A DNA stretch of 64,000 bases. Source: Synechococcus sp. CC9311. Its GTDB lineage: Bacteria > Cyanobacteriota > Cyanobacteriia > PCC-6307 > Cyanobiaceae. The translations under genes were made by a program, and so were the position numbers. The first letter of the stretch is position 1. Each line of letters starts with the position of its first letter. Below are positions 1,929 through 8,435 of this stretch, piece by piece. The notes under the pieces are model-generated. The model was not told the origin of the DNA. It saw only the letters and a list, made by a program, of their open reading frames with translations, and searched no databases. The stretch spans positions 496,001 to 560,000 of the forward strand of contig NC_008319.1 of the NCBI RefSeq assembly GCF_000014585.1, read 5' to 3'.

Positions 1929-3575
1929 TTACATTACTTCGGTAATGGATAGAATCTTCCCTCCACGTGAATGGATGTACTTCATTTGGCTTGACATGTC
2001 TTTCCCAGATACTAAATATGTGTTGCCTGCTGTGCGTTGTCTGCTGCGTGCAGCTTGAGCTGACACAACGATTCTGAATCTCTTCTTGGTTGGATCCGCT
2101 GCACCTGATTGTGTACCAGTGCGGTTGATTCGAGTTGTGGTCGAACTCCAACCCCCTGGAACTGTATCAGTAGCAACAGAGGTTACGAGTGAAGATCCTG
2201 TTTGAACGGTGTCACTAGCTGCATATCCTTCGGCTAATTTCAGGTGACGATTAAAGGCAATCTGAGACCGTCCATTTTCTGAAAGAATACGTGCAAATGG
2301 CACGGTGTCTTCGCCGAAGATTGTTTGATATTCAACGCTATCAACATAGCTACAAATCTCTGCTTCATAACCACTTTCAGCAAGGATCTTTGTGTGCTCG
2401 CTGATTTCGGCTTGTGATTTTGGTGCTCTTCCTAAGAAGTGCTTAAAGTTTAACTCAATGAAGCGATAAGGAGCATTTGTTTCGAAGAAACGACGCTTGT
2501 ATTCTGCTGACAGTCCAAGTGCGCGGACAAATTCACGAGTACTCAGATAGCCGTCAACATACTTACTTTCAGCTGAGATTGCCCTTTCAAATTCCATCAA
2601 GTGTGGGTTGCCCATGACCTGCTTGTAGGAAGCCCTAATCAAGGCATTGAGCTGATCATTAGAGTCACCGGGGCAGCGTTGGAATGTTTCTTGCTCCCGT
2701 TGCCCAAGTCCAAAAAATACGTAGCTGTCACCACGCATTGGCGCTCCATCTTTGCCACTTGTGACACCAGGTGCTCTGCTTGCAAAACGACCTGCTGCAT
2801 AGCTTGGAGTTGGTTTTACTCCAATCGATTCAGATGGGACATTGATTCTTGGTGCATGTCCACTGGCATAACTACTGATGAGGTTGCTGCTGCCGCCTCT
2901 TGCACTATCACTACCCGCAAAGCTTTTTTGAATTGCTGCTAGTAATGGGAAAGCAGATGTTGCTAGATCAGCTGGTGAAGACCAAGCTCTTGCATAGGGA
3001 ACGACATCACTTCCGAATACCTCGAGATATTCTGCAGAATCAACAATACTGTCGATGACAGCTTCCTGTCCATGTTCAGCTTGTAGTGAAATTTTCGCTG
3101 AAATCTCTGCCTGTGAGTGTGGTGCTCTTCCAAGAAGGTGTTTGATATTTAAATCAATGCCCCTTTGTGGTCCAACAGCTGTGAAAAATCTTTGCTTGTA
3201 GAAACTTGACTTTGCAAGTCCCCGAACAAAGTCACGAACCGTAAGCTCGCCATTACGAAGTTGTGCTTCAAGTTCTTTGGAACGCTCGAAATCCATGACA
3301 TGAGCATTGCCAAATACCTGACGATATGCGGCTGCAATAACATCATCAAGGGATGAATTGTCATCTGGGCTGTAGCATTCTGATGTCACTCTGTGGGGGC
3401 AATCTGCGTGGCTCCTTGGCCCTACGCCAATAGCCATCTGATCACATGAATTCTTGAGGAATTCTCCTGTTGTTAAGGCTGCCTTCTGTTTTGTTTTCCC
3501 CTTTCTTTGAAAGGAAACTGGATTATTCCACTTGCTTTCTGCGCCAAATCCTGAGGATGTTTTGTTGGTTGCCAT
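1929..3575 (-). CDS. mpeD: two-domain phycoerythrin-II linker, MpeC-like plus CpeD-like fusion
   Basis: At 548 residues this equals the length reported for marine Synechococcus MpeD, a fusion of an MpeC-like and a CpeD-like linker. The N-terminal half has the PE-II linker signature CDQMAIGVGPRSHADCP (Cys44 and Cys59) and a linker domain at about 75-205 with NIKHLLGRAPHSQAEIS. The second half has another linker domain at about 305-430 with ELNFKHFLGRAPKSQAEIS and a CpcD-like tail ending RGGKILSITEVM. Published MpeD carries phycourobilin, and Cys44 lies in the region of the known MpeC attachment site, so chromophorylation is likely. It may bridge PE-I and PE-II discs, which would explain two linker domains in one chain. 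Confidence 0.88.
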   Translation of the reverse strand: MATNKTSSGFGAESKWNNPVSFQRKGKTKQKAALTTGEFLKNSCDQMAIGVGPRSHADCPHRVTSECYSPDDNSSLDDVIAAAYRQVFGNAHVMDFERSKELEAQLRNGELTVRDFVRGLAKSSFYKQRFFTAVGPQRGIDLNIKHLLGRAPHSQAEISAKISLQAEHGQEAVIDSIVDSAEYLEVFGSDVVPYARAWSSPADLATSAFPLLAAIQKSFAGSDSARGGSSNLISSYASGHAPRINVPSESIGVKPTPSYAAGRFASRAPGVTSGKDGAPMRGDSYVFFGLGQREQETFQRCPGDSNDQLNALIRASYKQVMGNPHLMEFERAISAESKYVDGYLSTREFVRALGLSAEYKRRFFETNAPYRFIELNFKHFLGRAPKSQAEISEHTKILAESGYEAEICSYVDSVEYQTIFGEDTVPFARILSENGRSQIAFNRHLKLAEGYAASDTVQTGSSLVTSVATDTVPGGWSSTTTRINRTGTQSGAADPTKKRFRIVVSAQAARSRQRTAGNTYLVSGKDMSSQMKYIHSRGGKILSITEVM

Positions 3576-3632: not shown

Positions 3633-4517
3633 TTAAGTGACTGGTGTAATGCTGGAAATTTTACCCCCTTCACGATGTATTCTTATGAATTGCTCTGAGA
3701 GTTTGTCGAAGGGAATGTAAAAGACTCTATTTGATTTTGTGTATCGTGATATTCGACGTACATTGTTAGCTCTATATCCAGTTACCTCAACGCGATATGT
3801 GGTCCCTTCTTGGCCTGCTCCAACGCCGAGGCGTGTAGGTGCATCTTGAAGATTTTTGGCTCTCCTAAAGCTCCATCCAGTTGCTTCTTTGGATGATGGT
3901 GGGACAACAGCGAGTGGAAGGTTTTGGTAGGCAGCCCCTCCAAGTTTTGCTGTGATTCCTGATAGGTCACCTTTCAGACTGCTACTACTGTTGCCACGAA
4001 GAAGTTGGAAACTCCATGTGAACTCTTGAAGGGTTTTGCAGCTCTCCGTCTTCCAGCCACGCTGATAGGGCACAATCCACTCCCCGTATGAATTCTGATA
4101 GTCATCAGAATCCAAATAGCTATCTATATCGGCCTCAAATCCCAAACTGTCAAGACGTTCAGCATGCGCGCGCATTTCATCAAAATCGACCGGGGCTCTT
4201 CCTAAGAAATGTCTGAAGGCAAGTTCGATGTATCGATAGCGCGGGCAGGACTCGAAAAATCGGCTTCGATATAAGTCGCTTTTCGCGATTCGTCGGATGA
4301 GCTCACGAACGCTGATTTCCCCAAGCTTGAACTGGGATTCGGCGATCAATTGCCGTTCGCTCTCCATCACGTAGGCATTGCCAAGCACTTGCTTGTAGAT
4401 AGCGCGTATGAGGGCTTCCTTTTGGGTGTCGTCGTCGCCTGGAAGCAGTTCGAGCGGTGCTTCACTCTCTGCGGAGAAACGCTCGACCCCTAGGAGCGAG
4501 GCAGGACCAAAGGGCAT
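3633..4517 (-). CDS. cpeC: phycoerythrin-I rod linker
   Basis: The 294-residue protein has a linker domain at about 30-165 (IYKQVLGNAYVMESERQ and ELAFRHFLGRAPVDFDEM) and a clear CpcD domain at about 235-294 (TYRVEVTGYRANNVRRIS, ending EGGKISSITPVT). This is the standard CpeC layout. It lacks the PE-II type Cys motif near residue 45. The gene sits 57 bases upstream of mpeD on the same strand, so the order cpeC-mpeD-cpeE is one rod-linker series. The coding sequence is more GC rich at its 5' end (4100-4500) than its neighbours. Confidence 0.82.
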   Translation of the reverse strand: MPFGPASLLGVERFSAESEAPLELLPGDDDTQKEALIRAIYKQVLGNAYVMESERQLIAESQFKLGEISVRELIRRIAKSDLYRSRFFESCPRYRYIELAFRHFLGRAPVDFDEMRAHAERLDSLGFEADIDSYLDSDDYQNSYGEWIVPYQRGWKTESCKTLQEFTWSFQLLRGNSSSSLKGDLSGITAKLGGAAYQNLPLAVVPPSSKEATGWSFRRAKNLQDAPTRLGVGAGQEGTTYRVEVTGYRANNVRRISRYTKSNRVFYIPFDKLSEQFIRIHREGGKISSITPVT

Positions 4518-4677: not shown

Positions 4678-5367
4678 TTATGCTTCTAAAAGCAGGGATT
4701 CGAGGCTTGAGCGTGCACTACTTCGTGTTAGTGGATTCCAGTGGTCCAACTCGATCGCAGGCCTTTCTAGCAAAAGTTGAATATTGGGCTTCATTCCTTT
4801 GCACATAGAGAAATCGCTGCCTTTGATTGATTCGACTGTTTCCAGACTGGCCTCTGTTAAATCAGCCCCTCTTAGGTCGGCCATATTAAGTTCGCTAGTG
4901 CCAAATCGAGTTCTTCTACACATGGCTCCCCTTAAGATCGCATTGCGTAGATCAGCTCCTGCCATTGAGATGTTATCTAGTAGTGCACCACTAAGGTCTG
5001 CTCCACTTAGATAAGCCCCCATTAATGACCCTTTTCGTAGATCTATTCCTCTTAAATCCGCATTATTTAGGAACGCTCCGTTGAGTTGAGCTCCTGGTCC
5101 AATTGCTCCGCTAGTACGGATATTGAACCCCTCTGGTAACTGTGTTTTGTTGTCGTATTTTGCTAACCTCATGTCAACATTTTCTATTTGACATCCTGAC
5201 AAATTTGCGCCTCTTAAATCAGCACGGCACAGATTTGCCTCTCTTAAATCAAGATTTCCAATATCTTTGTTTTGCCAATCCGCACCTCGAGCATCTACTG
5301 GGTAATGGGTAATATTTTCTGGCGAAGCCAATTCAGGCGGCCTCCAGTTATTTATGTCGAAATTCAT
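4678..5367 (-). CDS. pentapeptide-repeat protein of the phycobilisome region
   Basis: The 229-residue protein is built largely of A(D/N)LxX pentapeptides, for example NLDLREANLCRADLRGANLS near residues 38-57, ADLRGIDLRKGSLMGAYLSG near 107-126 and ADLRNAILRG near 140. Such repeats fold as a right-handed quadrilateral beta helix that serves as a protein-binding surface. No catalytic motif is visible. It starts 4 bases after the stop of the CpcL-like linker gene, so the two are almost certainly translated together. A scaffold or chaperone role in rod assembly is an inference from position only. The repeat regularity breaks around residues 62-90, where a non-repeat insert with GFNIRTSGAIGPG occurs. 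Confidence 0.78.
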   Translation of the reverse strand: MNFDINNWRPPELASPENITHYPVDARGADWQNKDIGNLDLREANLCRADLRGANLSGCQIENVDMRLAKYDNKTQLPEGFNIRTSGAIGPGAQLNGAFLNNADLRGIDLRKGSLMGAYLSGADLSGALLDNISMAGADLRNAILRGAMCRRTRFGTSELNMADLRGADLTEASLETVESIKGSDFSMCKGMKPNIQLLLERPAIELDHWNPLTRSSARSSLESLLLEA

Positions 5368-5371
5368 GTTC

Positions 5372-6130
5372 TTAATTTCGTACCATCGATATTCCGATTG
5401 TAATTATTACTCGTGATATTTCAAAGCCTCCAATTGCAAATAGGACCAGCCAAGACTTAATCAGCCATGCGGGTGGTTTTCCAACGATCGAGTTCATCTC
5501 GCTCTTCACACCACCAGTAGTGAACGTTTTATTGACGACTTCTCTTGAAATAAGTGAATTTCTCCATTCTTCACCATAACGTGGAAATCTTTGATAAATT
5601 GGCATGTCTCCAGATGGCCGACCTGGTATTAACCTGCCACGCTGTGCTGGCGTACCATCATATCCAAAGTTACTCATATATTCATCACTTTCTAGTATTT
5701 GATCTACAAAATTTGCGAATCCTTTCTCTGCAATTACAATTGACCAAGCCAATCTTTCACCCTCGCCACTCACTGATCGCCCTAATACTCTCCCCACCAC
5801 TTGCTCCACCATTCTGTAATTCGAGCTGCATTGATAATATCCTTGTTGAAACCTTTCTGACAACAGGAGACCTCTTATGAAGTCTCTCATTGTTATGTAA
5901 CCACTCCTTAATTGTGATTCGAGATATATGTCTCGGTCACAACTCATTGCATGAAAGAAAATTTGCTTATATGTTTGTTCAATTAGGCTATCTACATCTC
6001 TTCGTGCTGCTATTGAAGACGCTGATGTTTCTCCTGTTACTTGATACTTGATTGAATCATTATTACCAGCAAGATTGTTGACCCGACTGTTCTGGCTCTT
6101 CAGAGAATAGTTGCGAACAGGTATAGCCAT
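5372..6130 (-). CDS. cpcL: CpcG/CpcL-family linker with hydrophobic C-terminal segment
   Basis: The 252-residue protein opens MAIPVRNYSLKSQNSRV, which follows the CpcG rod-core linker N-terminus. The linker domain (about 45-170) contains YLESQLRSGYITMRDFIRGL, RVLGRSVSGEGERLAWSIVI and ESDEYMSNFGYDGTPAQRGR, also CpcG-like. The C-terminus (about 222-249) is a strongly hydrophobic stretch with WLVLFAIGGFEIS and VIITIGISM. A membrane-spanning tail and a length near 250 are the features of CpcL (CpcG2 type) in freshwater cyanobacteria. There the protein ties rods to the thylakoid and to photosystem I without a core. The gene is immediately followed by the pentapeptide-repeat gene. Divergence from classic CpcL is considerable, so a PE-specific variant is possible. 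Confidence 0.72.
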   Translation of the reverse strand: MAIPVRNYSLKSQNSRVNNLAGNNDSIKYQVTGETSASSIAARRDVDSLIEQTYKQIFFHAMSCDRDIYLESQLRSGYITMRDFIRGLLLSERFQQGYYQCSSNYRMVEQVVGRVLGRSVSGEGERLAWSIVIAEKGFANFVDQILESDEYMSNFGYDGTPAQRGRLIPGRPSGDMPIYQRFPRYGEEWRNSLISREVVNKTFTTGGVKSEMNSIVGKPPAWLIKSWLVLFAIGGFEISRVIITIGISMVRN

Positions 6131-6382: not shown

Positions 6383-7213
6383 TTATCTTTTTGTTGTTTG
6401 TGGTGTGAACATTCTTTGAAATGCTCCTGAGGATGGGTCCCTTACTGCTTTTGAATAACTAAATCCTGAGACATCAAAGTTACCTGTTGAAGTACTTAGT
6501 TCTCTCGCATTGGCTAATGTCATAACGAGTTGGCTTCTTCCGCCTACAATCTTGTCTGAACTTGCGTTGCCTGTGCTCACTGAGCACATATTGACAAACG
6601 TGGAGCAGTAAAACCCTGCTTCAGATTTCCATGCTCGATCGTAAGGGACTGTGTCAGTACCAAACACCTCAAGATATTCACCAGATGAGGTCATTCTATT
6701 AATGAATACATCATATCCCTGGTCTGCGATTAAACTTATACAAGCGCTAATTTCACTTTGATTAATTGGTGGTCGGCCCAGCAAATGCTTGAAATTGTGC
6801 TCTACTCCTCTAATTGGTGAAACTTTGTGGTAATAGTTCTGTCTGTAGAATTCTGACTTGGCTAGCCCAGCGACGAAATCTCTAGTTGTAATTCTTCCGT
6901 CTCTAAGCTGGGATTCGAGCTCTTTACACCGTTGACTATCAGTTGGATTTGCATTGCCCATCACCTGTTTATAGGCACTGCTAATAGCTGTTTCTAAAGC
7001 ACTATTTCCAGTGGCTGAATATTCCTCCGCTGTAACGCCAAATGGGCATTCCCCATGATGTCTTGGCCCAATACCAATTCCCATAGATTTGCATTGGTTT
7101 TCTTTAAATCTCTCTACTGTTAGAGCGGCTGCTTCTTTCGCCTTTTTATTTGTTGCTGTAAATGAAGTGCGCGTATTATTCGTGAAATCACGTGTTGGCT
7201 TGATGGCAACCAT
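6383..7213 (-). CDS. phycoerythrin-II-type linker (MpeC/MpeE/MpeF family), probably bilin bearing
   Basis: The 276-residue protein closely follows the N-terminal half of the MpeD protein in this window: CKSMGIGIGPRHHGECP (Cys41 and Cys56), then a linker domain at about 70-200 with HNFKHLLGRPPINQSEIS and EYLEVFGTDTVPYDRAW. Cys41 lies where MpeC-type linkers bind phycourobilin. Like the single-domain Mpe linkers it has no CpcD tail. The C-terminal 75 residues are rich in Ser, Thr and Asn. Which letter it should carry (mpeC, mpeE, mpeF or other) needs a family tree. It is the last gene before a terminator, and its start overlaps the small gene upstream. Confidence 0.78.
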   Translation of the reverse strand: MVAIKPTRDFTNNTRTSFTATNKKAKEAAALTVERFKENQCKSMGIGIGPRHHGECPFGVTAEEYSATGNSALETAISSAYKQVMGNANPTDSQRCKELESQLRDGRITTRDFVAGLAKSEFYRQNYYHKVSPIRGVEHNFKHLLGRPPINQSEISACISLIADQGYDVFINRMTSSGEYLEVFGTDTVPYDRAWKSEAGFYCSTFVNMCSVSTGNASSDKIVGGRSQLVMTLANARELSTSTGNFDVSGFSYSKAVRDPSSGAFQRMFTPQTTKR

Positions 7214-7414: not shown

Positions 7415-7993
7415 TTATTTGATGCATTCTATCTTTTCTACTAGATGGTTGAAGCATCCATCCAGTAGTTTCAGGTCCTTCTTTTCTTTTCTTTCTGAAT
7501 ATACTTTTTTGCAGTTTTCTTGTAGCTCTTTCAGGCAAATTATTAATGCATCTATGGGTACTTCTAGTATTTTATATAATTCTTGGATTGCCTTTACTCC
7601 CTCTTTGTCAGTAATGTTTGTGTATCCTGCAGCTGTTCCGTAGATGCTTATTCTTGCAAAGTGAAAGCAATCTCTCCAGCATGCCTCTGCTCTTTCTTTT
7701 GGGTAGAGTGATCCACCTGGTTCTGTGATGTTTGGGATCTTTCTGATCAGAGTTTCTTTTGCGTTATTAATTAATTCGGGTAGTCTATGCTGTAATTCTT
7801 CGAGTTTTATTGAATCGCAACGCGATTGCTCGCAGAGGCTATTCAGCTCTATGGTGCTCAGTAGTCTTTTTTCTCTGTTGGCCAAGTCAAGTATTTTTTG
7901 ATTTTTTTCTAGTATCAGGCTGCTTTTGTGCAACCCAAATAGTTCTGCTTTCTTTGCTAGCTCTCTTAATGTTTGAGATGGATTATTTTCCAT
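7415..7993 (-). CDS. allophycocyanin-like phycobiliprotein (AplA-like)
   Basis: The 192-residue protein matches the allophycocyanin alpha fold region: EPGGSLYP at about 91, then ACWRDCFHFARISIYGTAAG at 104-123 and IQELYKILEVPI at about 136-147. Cys105 aligns with the conserved bilin-binding cysteine (Cys82 type), followed by the usual Arg-Asp. It is longer than ApcA (about 161 residues) and diverges at both ends, as AplA proteins do. It may carry a bilin and act as a sensor, an assembly factor or a minor pigment rather than a core subunit. It overlaps the end of the upstream unknown gene by 11 bases, so the two are translationally coupled. Confidence 0.68.
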   Translation of the reverse strand: MENNPSQTLRELAKKAELFGLHKSSLILEKNQKILDLANREKRLLSTIELNSLCEQSRCDSIKLEELQHRLPELINNAKETLIRKIPNITEPGGSLYPKERAEACWRDCFHFARISIYGTAAGYTNITDKEGVKAIQELYKILEVPIDALIICLKELQENCKKVYSERKEKKDLKLLDGCFNHLVEKIECIK

Positions 7994-8435
7994 CTTTTTG
8001 CCAATTTCCTAGTTGTTTGATGTCAATAATTGGAGATGCTGTTAGCCAGCCATGGCGCTCTAAGTAGAATGCCCAGGTTACCTCTGATCCAAGTCCTGGG
8101 CAATATTTGCAGACTGCTTCGGCAATATCATTTGGGATATCGAGCGATTTTAGCAAGTTTGCTATTTCGCTTGTTTTCCCGATCTTTGTAGAGCGTATTG
8201 CTGCGCCAACGATCCATGTTAATTTCGTGGTCGATAAATCTACTTGATTACTTTCGCATGCAAGTAATACATTCCCAGGGTTGGAAATGTTTTTCAGTGT
8301 TTCTCTCCACAGCATGATGTCTTCAGGCTTTAAGTTTAGCCTTAAAATTTCGTTCCCGATGTTGTAGTGAACCTCTTTCTCCTCGGAGCTATTCTTGAGC
8401 AGGTTTGAGAGTGTCTGCTCGACTGTGCTCTCCAT
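7983..8435 (-). CDS. unknown protein coupled to the allophycocyanin-like gene
   Basis: The 150-residue protein is mainly helical by composition and has no signal peptide or membrane segment. Recognisable features are limited to LKPEDIMLWRETLKNISNPG near 36-55 and a Trp-rich C-terminal part (EVTWAFYLERHGWLTASP). I do not recognise the family. It is the first gene of the unit that includes the AplA-like protein and the PE-II linker. Its stop codon lies inside the next gene. That arrangement suggests a partner, lyase or chaperone for the AplA-like protein, but nothing in the residues proves it. Confidence 0.6.
   Translation of the reverse strand: MESTVEQTLSNLLKNSSEEKEVHYNIGNEILRLNLKPEDIMLWRETLKNISNPGNVLLACESNQVDLSTTKLTWIVGAAIRSTKIGKTSEIANLLKSLDIPNDIAEAVCKYCPGLGSEVTWAFYLERHGWLTASPIIDIKQLGNWQKDGK

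Follow-up and report, generated by a model that had tools for sequence, protein, structure and literature searches.

A CpcL-like predicted membrane tail on the linker CpcGII of marine Synechococcus recurs on the phycoerythrin-II linkers MpeF and MpeG

CpcL is recognised by a membrane helix that replaces the C-terminus of CpcG (PMC9415938). The membrane-proximal hexamer of CpcL-PBS contains the PF00427 domain of CpcL, the transmembrane part being unresolved in the structure (PMC10322944), and CpcL partitions preferentially into the Triton layer (PMC12461855), which implies that standard preparations could lose tail-anchored rods. For marine Synechococcus, Six et al. 2007 (PMC2246261) distinguished CpcGII, encoded inside the phycobilisome (PBS) rod region, from CpcGI, encoded outside it, and termed CpcGII a rod-core linker. 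By mass spectrometry, CpcGII was undetected in purified phycobilisomes of the strains examined in that study and was for this reason omitted from its PC tree; an earlier sighting in a phycobilisome fraction of WH8102 is cited there. The extra phycoerythrin-II (PEII) linker of RCC307 and RS9916 likewise escaped detection. Table 2 of the paper lists it as MpeG in both strains (one sentence names the RS9916 gene mpeF), and the strains with mpeF in that table (CC9311, CC9902, BL107) lay outside the mass-spectrometry set (PMC2246261). In the main text of this paper, 'hydrophobic' occurs zero times, 'transmembrane' once (for Unk3) and 'membrane' in connection with the core-membrane linker alone, and a word search of that text returned no membrane tail on CpcGII, MpeF or MpeG (PMC2246261). 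Our reading of the open-licence literature, which covers little of what appears by subscription, found neither a membrane tail described for MpeF or MpeG nor a marine CpcGII called CpcL. As cpcL has been assigned in a phycoerythrin (PE)-rich Cyanobium strain (PMC13342260), it may already be known in part that CpcGII-type linkers can be read as CpcL; the occurrence of the CpcGII tail on MpeF and MpeG, and as a free ~59-aa protein, appears to be new.

The window analysed here is a stretch of 64,000 nucleotides from Synechococcus sp. CC9311 (positions 496001–560000 of a genome consisting of one contig of 2,606,748 bp). Coordinates refer to this window unless a locus handle or a genome position is given, and all window genes described below lie on the minus strand. 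A linker ORF of 252 aa (5372–6130) is followed, after a gap of four bases (5368–5371), by a pentapeptide-repeat ORF of 229 aa (4678–5367), confirming the positions and the spacing given in an earlier note on this DNA. The linker has a CpcG-type N-terminus and the PF00427 phycobilisome linker domain at residues 43–164 (5639–6004; 119.6 bits in Pfam); in NCBIfam it matches CpcG1 best, over residues 1–208 and, at 148.6 bits, far below the cut-off of 430. PF00805 matches the pentapeptide protein in three stretches (86.1 bits). On the downstream side there are three further rod linkers and a CpeS-type lyase; the linkers comprise two PE rod linkers with a CpcD domain, which by gene order we take to be those of cpeC (3633–4517) and cpeE (1117–1851), and an mpeD-type double linker (1929–3575), so named from its two linker domains and its N-half. 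The pair is thus surrounded by phycobilisome linker and related genes, in agreement with the earlier note, which placed it among PE linker genes; the note's mention of an oceanic strain is doubtful, CC9311 being a coastal one. Upstream lie an mpeE-type PEII linker gene with a C-x14-C pair (6383–7213), an aplA-type phycobiliprotein gene (PF00502; 7415–7993), in keeping with the aplA ortholog that Six et al. place upstream of cpcGII, and a gene for an Unk4-type protein without a Pfam family (7983–8435).

The 252-aa linker, encoded inside the PBS rod region while cpcGI lies outside it in this genome, is CpcGII, and the 229-aa protein is Unk5, in the nomenclature of Six et al. 2007 (PMC2246261). 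The gene pair is not new, its two members having received their description and names in that study; the order unk4-aplA-(mpeE)-cpcGII-unk5 is the one reported there, including mpeE upstream of cpcGII in CC9311 (PMC2246261). Elsewhere in the genome, the four linker domains of a 1203-aa ApcE-like frame also agree with what Six et al. state for CC9311 (PMC2246261). Several observations were made around the cluster. The AplA-type phycobiliprotein could, speculatively, accept energy from membrane-anchored rods. A MAG named Prochlorococcus marinus (L156:5989-6726, plus strand), either a misbinned Synechococcus or an unusual Prochlorococcus, has the gene order unk4–aplA–CpcG-type linker–unk5, its linker ending in a segment with a Kyte-Doolittle (KD) value of 1.84 that the tail profile introduced below leaves unmatched. 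A contig in a MAG named Porticoccaceae, with an mpeE-cpcGII-unk5-PE linker cluster, is probably contamination. A phage origin was rejected: CpcGII matched no phage record at 1e-5, and the 225 phage records matched by Unk5 all share less than 60% identity with it.

By inspection, CpcGII is devoid of the MARS...VPYR-type C-terminal segment of soluble CpcG relatives, the end by which CpcG attaches to the core. In its place, an AlphaFold model (30-row alignment; mean pLDDT 67.5) gives a single helix at residues 221–251 (5378–5470; block pLDDT 79–82), with a KD peak over 19 residues of 1.89 at residues 229–247. A CpcG-type linker with a predicted membrane-spanning helix instead of the usual CpcG C-terminus is the mark of CpcL in the literature, and the C-terminal hydrophobic segment and CpcL-type signature that the earlier note had claimed are therefore both present. 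With its CpcG-like N-terminus, its PF00427 domain and its single hydrophobic helix in lieu of a CpcG-type end, CpcGII resembles CpcL (CpcG2 of Synechocystis), the rod-membrane linker of the CpcL-phycobilisome. Hydrophobicity by itself was rejected as proof of a membrane helix: since 347 of 5000 residue shuffles of CpcGII reach 1.89 somewhere along their length, the value alone is not beyond chance. For comparison, among the other linkers of the genome, ApcE left out, six peak at 0.83–1.36, MpeF at 1.88 and CpcGIII at 2.33. The case for a putative membrane tail rests instead on C-terminal conservation. The tail is found at the C-terminus in all 30 best-matching loci, that of CC9311 included (by inspection), and across 13 CpcGII and MpeF tails (alignment A3) a proline, a glycine, a glutamate and an arginine are invariant, the last three as the motif G-x2-E-x2-R, while a second proline and a lysine are nearly so. 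As E237 and R240 lie inside the CpcGII helix, where they would be costly in bare lipid, they hint at a protein partner. Recycling of a photosystem I subunit or of another solved membrane protein was considered as a source of the tail and rejected, a single tail giving no match in the PDB; searched with the tail profiles A3 and A5, the PDB yielded unrelated proteins only (best E 0.46 and 0.27).

In a linker-domain tree of 53 rows, a 100/100 split separates the PE linkers from CpcG and CpcL. CpcGII falls with the latter, in a group (99/96) that includes CpcGIII and joins CpcG rather than CpcL at 85/56. Forcing CpcL and CpcGII into one tailed clade is 28.8 lnL worse and not rejected at 0.05 (AU p 0.056), in a 37-row tree from which CpcGIII and most PE linkers were left out. 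The CpcGII linker domain is of the FFHA type, in contrast to the NEQQ type of the CpcL rows. The CpcL-like reading of the earlier note, which would have lost its ground had the protein grouped with PE rod linkers and had no helix been predicted, was thus upheld on both of these points, whereas a place among canonical CpcL bodies was not obtained. Foldseek with the CpcGII model returned CpcG chains first and the CpcL chain 8hfq_n at rank 10, an order that is uninformative at the mean pLDDT of this model. The tail and the absent CpcG-type C-terminus support a CpcL-like reading of the protein, and the tree weakly suggests that a CpcG body took on a CpcL-like tail.

The tail is not confined to CpcGII. 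Profile A4, built from 17 CpcGII-type tails with that of CC9311 included and MpeF excluded, was run over the whole CC9311 genome and returned CpcGII at 3.2e-22 (by construction) and, as the sole other convincing match, the PEII linker MpeF at 4.4e-5, the next matches scoring 0.22 and 0.82. This linker, the tail of which the earlier note had overlooked, is encoded at L004:1282-2187, plus strand (genome positions 1978015–1978917), next to a cytochrome c550-like ORF (named by inspection). It lies outside the rod region, is related to the MpeD N-half and is distinct from the MpeG of RCC307, and received the name MpeF by elimination. CpcGIII (L012:1216-1947, minus strand) has a hydrophobic end of a type that the tail profile does not recognise, and was rejected as a third user of the CpcGII tail (1.1 bits with A4). 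In 26 relatives, hand-chosen and most of them for carrying MpeF or MpeG, A4 detected CpcGII tails in 24 (several being rows of the profile) and MpeF/MpeG tails in 20 (E 1.4e-8 to 1.5e-5), as well as eight small ORFs (3e-10 to 1e-3), the remaining matches starting at 0.059. These eight ORFs encode a ~59-aa protein that consists of the tail and nothing else (for example at L118:2708-2887, plus strand). Summed over pairs of the eight genes, differences at codon positions 1, 2 and 3 number 270, 100 and 661, a bias which argues that the ORF is protein-coding; the members tested matched no family in Pfam, NCBIfam or PHROG, and nothing convincing in the PDB. A tail-only protein was sought in CC9311 with the tail profile and not found. 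At one locus (L122) the small gene is situated between cpcGII and unk5.

By inspection, the MpeG C-terminus is a version of the whole ~59-aa protein. The carriers of tailed MpeG include RCC307, for which Six et al. list mpeG (PMC2246261). In the 53-row tree, the bodies of MpeF and MpeG cluster with the MpeD N-half, MpeC and MpeE (97/92), that is, across the 100/100 split from CpcGII, so the same tail is found on two distant bodies. This suggests that the tail is a portable module, fused to CpcGII, MpeF or MpeG and also occurring free as the 59-aa protein. In their location outside the rod region, their relation to the MpeD N-half and their presence in chromatic acclimaters and RCC307, the MpeF and MpeG seen here are those of Six et al.; the CpcGII-like membrane tail predicted on both goes unmentioned in the main text of that paper (PMC2246261).

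We lean moderately towards the view that CpcGII is a CpcL-like rod-membrane linker, and that tail-bearing linkers make core-free rods attached to a complex in the membrane, photosystem I being the likeliest. The CpcG-type linker domain of CpcGII would hold the base hexamer of a rod, and its single C-terminal helix would anchor this rod in the thylakoid rather than on the allophycocyanin core. CpcGII, MpeF and MpeG would each build small core-free rods docking at a membrane complex; in CpcGII and MpeF, the conserved G-x2-E-x2-R side of the helix would pack against this complex. The genes and their tails, and how these are related and distributed, are observed here, whereas we infer membrane insertion, core-free rods and a photosystem I partner, the last by analogy with freshwater CpcL. 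Membrane anchoring, with the attendant loss during preparation, would explain why CpcGII and MpeG went undetected in purified phycobilisomes, and MpeF is predicted to be lost from such preparations likewise.

Alternatively, CpcGII could be a second rod-core linker and a low-copy part of ordinary phycobilisomes, its helix residing within the core, on it, or against ApcE. This would fit the lean of its body to CpcG (85/56; AU p 0.056), the modest hydrophobicity (KD only 1.89) with charges inside the helix, and its reported presence in the WH8102 phycobilisome fraction (PMC2246261), all of which count against the membrane-linker explanation. The tail searches count against it as well: A3 and A5 matched no CpcL chain in the PDB, 8hfq_n (249 aa) and 9wd5_1 (237 aa) included, and among 20 tailed CpcL-type proteins outside the family, picked from a class-wide search for long or CpcL-like matches rather than at random, A4 scored clearly on only 3 (11.8–16.5 bits), the rest giving at most 5 bits or none. 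Against a rod-core role, CpcGII lacks the C-terminal segment of its soluble CpcG relatives, and its tail recurs in conserved form on linkers of PEII, a class located away from the core. CpcGII was, moreover, absent by mass spectrometry from the strains examined by Six et al. (PMC2246261), and we regard a rod-core role as unlikely.

The tails might also serve to tether ordinary phycobilisomes, with MpeF and MpeG replacing the distal PEII linker and holding rod tips to the facing thylakoid without feeding photosystem I. Marine Synechococcus has closely stacked thylakoids, and PEII emission overlaps chlorophyll absorption poorly, which favours such a role and counts against a simple route from PEII to photosystem I. 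The grouping of MpeF and MpeG bodies with MpeC, MpeE and the MpeD N-half (97/92) points the same way, MpeC being the distal PEII linker (PMC2246261). Yet CpcGII has this tail too, on a body of the base-hexamer type, and we consider tethering improbable. As to the chromophore, a C-x14-C pair is present in the N-terminal region of MpeE, MpeC, MpeD and the MpeF of CC9311, as well as in 10 of 14 MpeF and 9 of 10 MpeG checked; four short MpeF, one MpeG and CpcGII have no such pair. Six et al. tied two cysteines in the N-terminal region of MpeD to phycourobilin (PMC2246261), and a phycourobilin is accordingly a prediction for the CC9311 MpeF. Four loci (L055–L058) encode a short MpeF of 269 aa with the tail and no C-x14-C pair, perhaps a linker without phycourobilin.

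The distribution of the tails was surveyed in 200 genomes of the family, 142 of which were scored as phycobilisome-containing (at least two linker matches); genomes with a best CpeA-family E below 1e-70 were scored as PE-containing. Profile A5 matches 124 of the 200 genomes and, within the phycobilisome-containing set, 74/80 with and 50/62 without PE, counts that are lower bounds since rows missing the 1e-3 limit were scored as lacking the tail (for example G024, scored only by A4). Among the matches listed, tailed MpeF is present in at least 14 and tailed MpeG in at least 10 genomes, with no overlap, and the tail-only ORF in at least 19 of the 200. The three were distinguished by place and open-frame length, eight of the tail-only ORFs having been read, and two 127-aa frames (G048, G067) were excluded from the tail-only count; an ORF at L157 that resembles these frames proved to be the end of a CpcGII-like linker, read in an odd frame. 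At least 24 of 42 PEII-type genomes carry a tailed MpeF or MpeG among the matches listed, PEII type being assigned by an MpeF match at E≤1e-60, a proxy that mostly works through the MpeD N-half. These linkers were found in 19 of the 24 PEII-type genomes with both fciA and fciB versus 5 of the 18 others (p 0.0015); an fciA fragment in G047 was not counted, which lowers the former set from 25 to 24. A strict link between MpeF/MpeG and chromatic acclimation was rejected, as five of the 24 lack them and five of the 18 have them. Internal stops were seen in fciA-like genes of G170 (one TAG) and G047 (fragmented). CC9311 itself has two adjacent AraC-type genes, which we read as fciAB, at 1.961 Mb beside an unk10-like ORF, with mpeF at 1.978 Mb; such an island has been described in chromatic acclimaters, CC9311 among them (PMC3877281).

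One elaboration, which we put forward tentatively and think somewhat unlikely as a whole, would have two kinds of core-free rod: PC/PE rods on CpcGII and phycourobilin-rich PEII rods on MpeF or MpeG. Both would use one tail and the same photosystem site, probably on photosystem I, which the free 59-aa protein of some relatives would occupy or compete for. As the PEII version is more frequent in genomes with fciAB, blue/green chromatic acclimation might, on this view, include a re-wiring of excitation between photosystems.

The earlier note had further proposed the pentapeptide protein as an assembly partner of the membrane linker, so that linker and pentapeptide protein together would be dedicated to an antenna of photosystem I. 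The four-base gap in the window is in line with this. So are the 29 named loci holding both genes: with ORF starts set mechanically, unk5 begins no more than 200 bases beyond the tailed linker in 25 of them, and at 1.3 to 1.9 kb in the other four. Across genomes, however, Unk5 follows PE and not the tail. Found in 82 of the 200 genomes, it is present in 79/80 PE-containing versus 3/62 PE-lacking phycobilisome genomes (p 4e-35), and in 75 of 124 genomes with a tail match versus 7 of 18 without (p 0.12); CpeA exceeds the cut-off in 112 of the 200, genomes without phycobilisome linkers included. In two of the three PE-lacking genomes with Unk5 (G064, G118) the gene is at a contig edge, and the single PE-containing genome without it is G115. 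Three PE-containing genomes of other genera (G024, G135, G096) have Unk5 on a different contig from the CpcGII-like linker or at a distance of over 1 Mb from it, and of the 50 PE-lacking genomes that keep a tailed linker, 48 are without Unk5. We accordingly abandoned Unk5 as the partner of the membrane linker and consider a dedicated pair very improbable; the distribution is best explained by Unk5 being a phycoerythrin-linked protein rather than part of the anchor. In its pentapeptide repeats, its usual place downstream of cpcGII in PE-containing strains and its unk4-like phyletic profile, the protein does not differ from the Unk5 of Six et al., and the wider survey confirms its link to PE (PMC2246261).

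Should CpcGII, MpeF and MpeG indeed hold core-free rods at the membrane, a whole class of antenna may have been lost in standard phycobilisome preparations, the CpcL trick would extend to phycoerythrin linkers, and the tail would offer a direct experimental handle on this class. It would bear on how photosystem I of marine Synechococcus receives energy from phycobilisomes. These cyanobacteria, a main primary producer of the ocean, may anchor some of their light-harvesting rods directly in the membrane.
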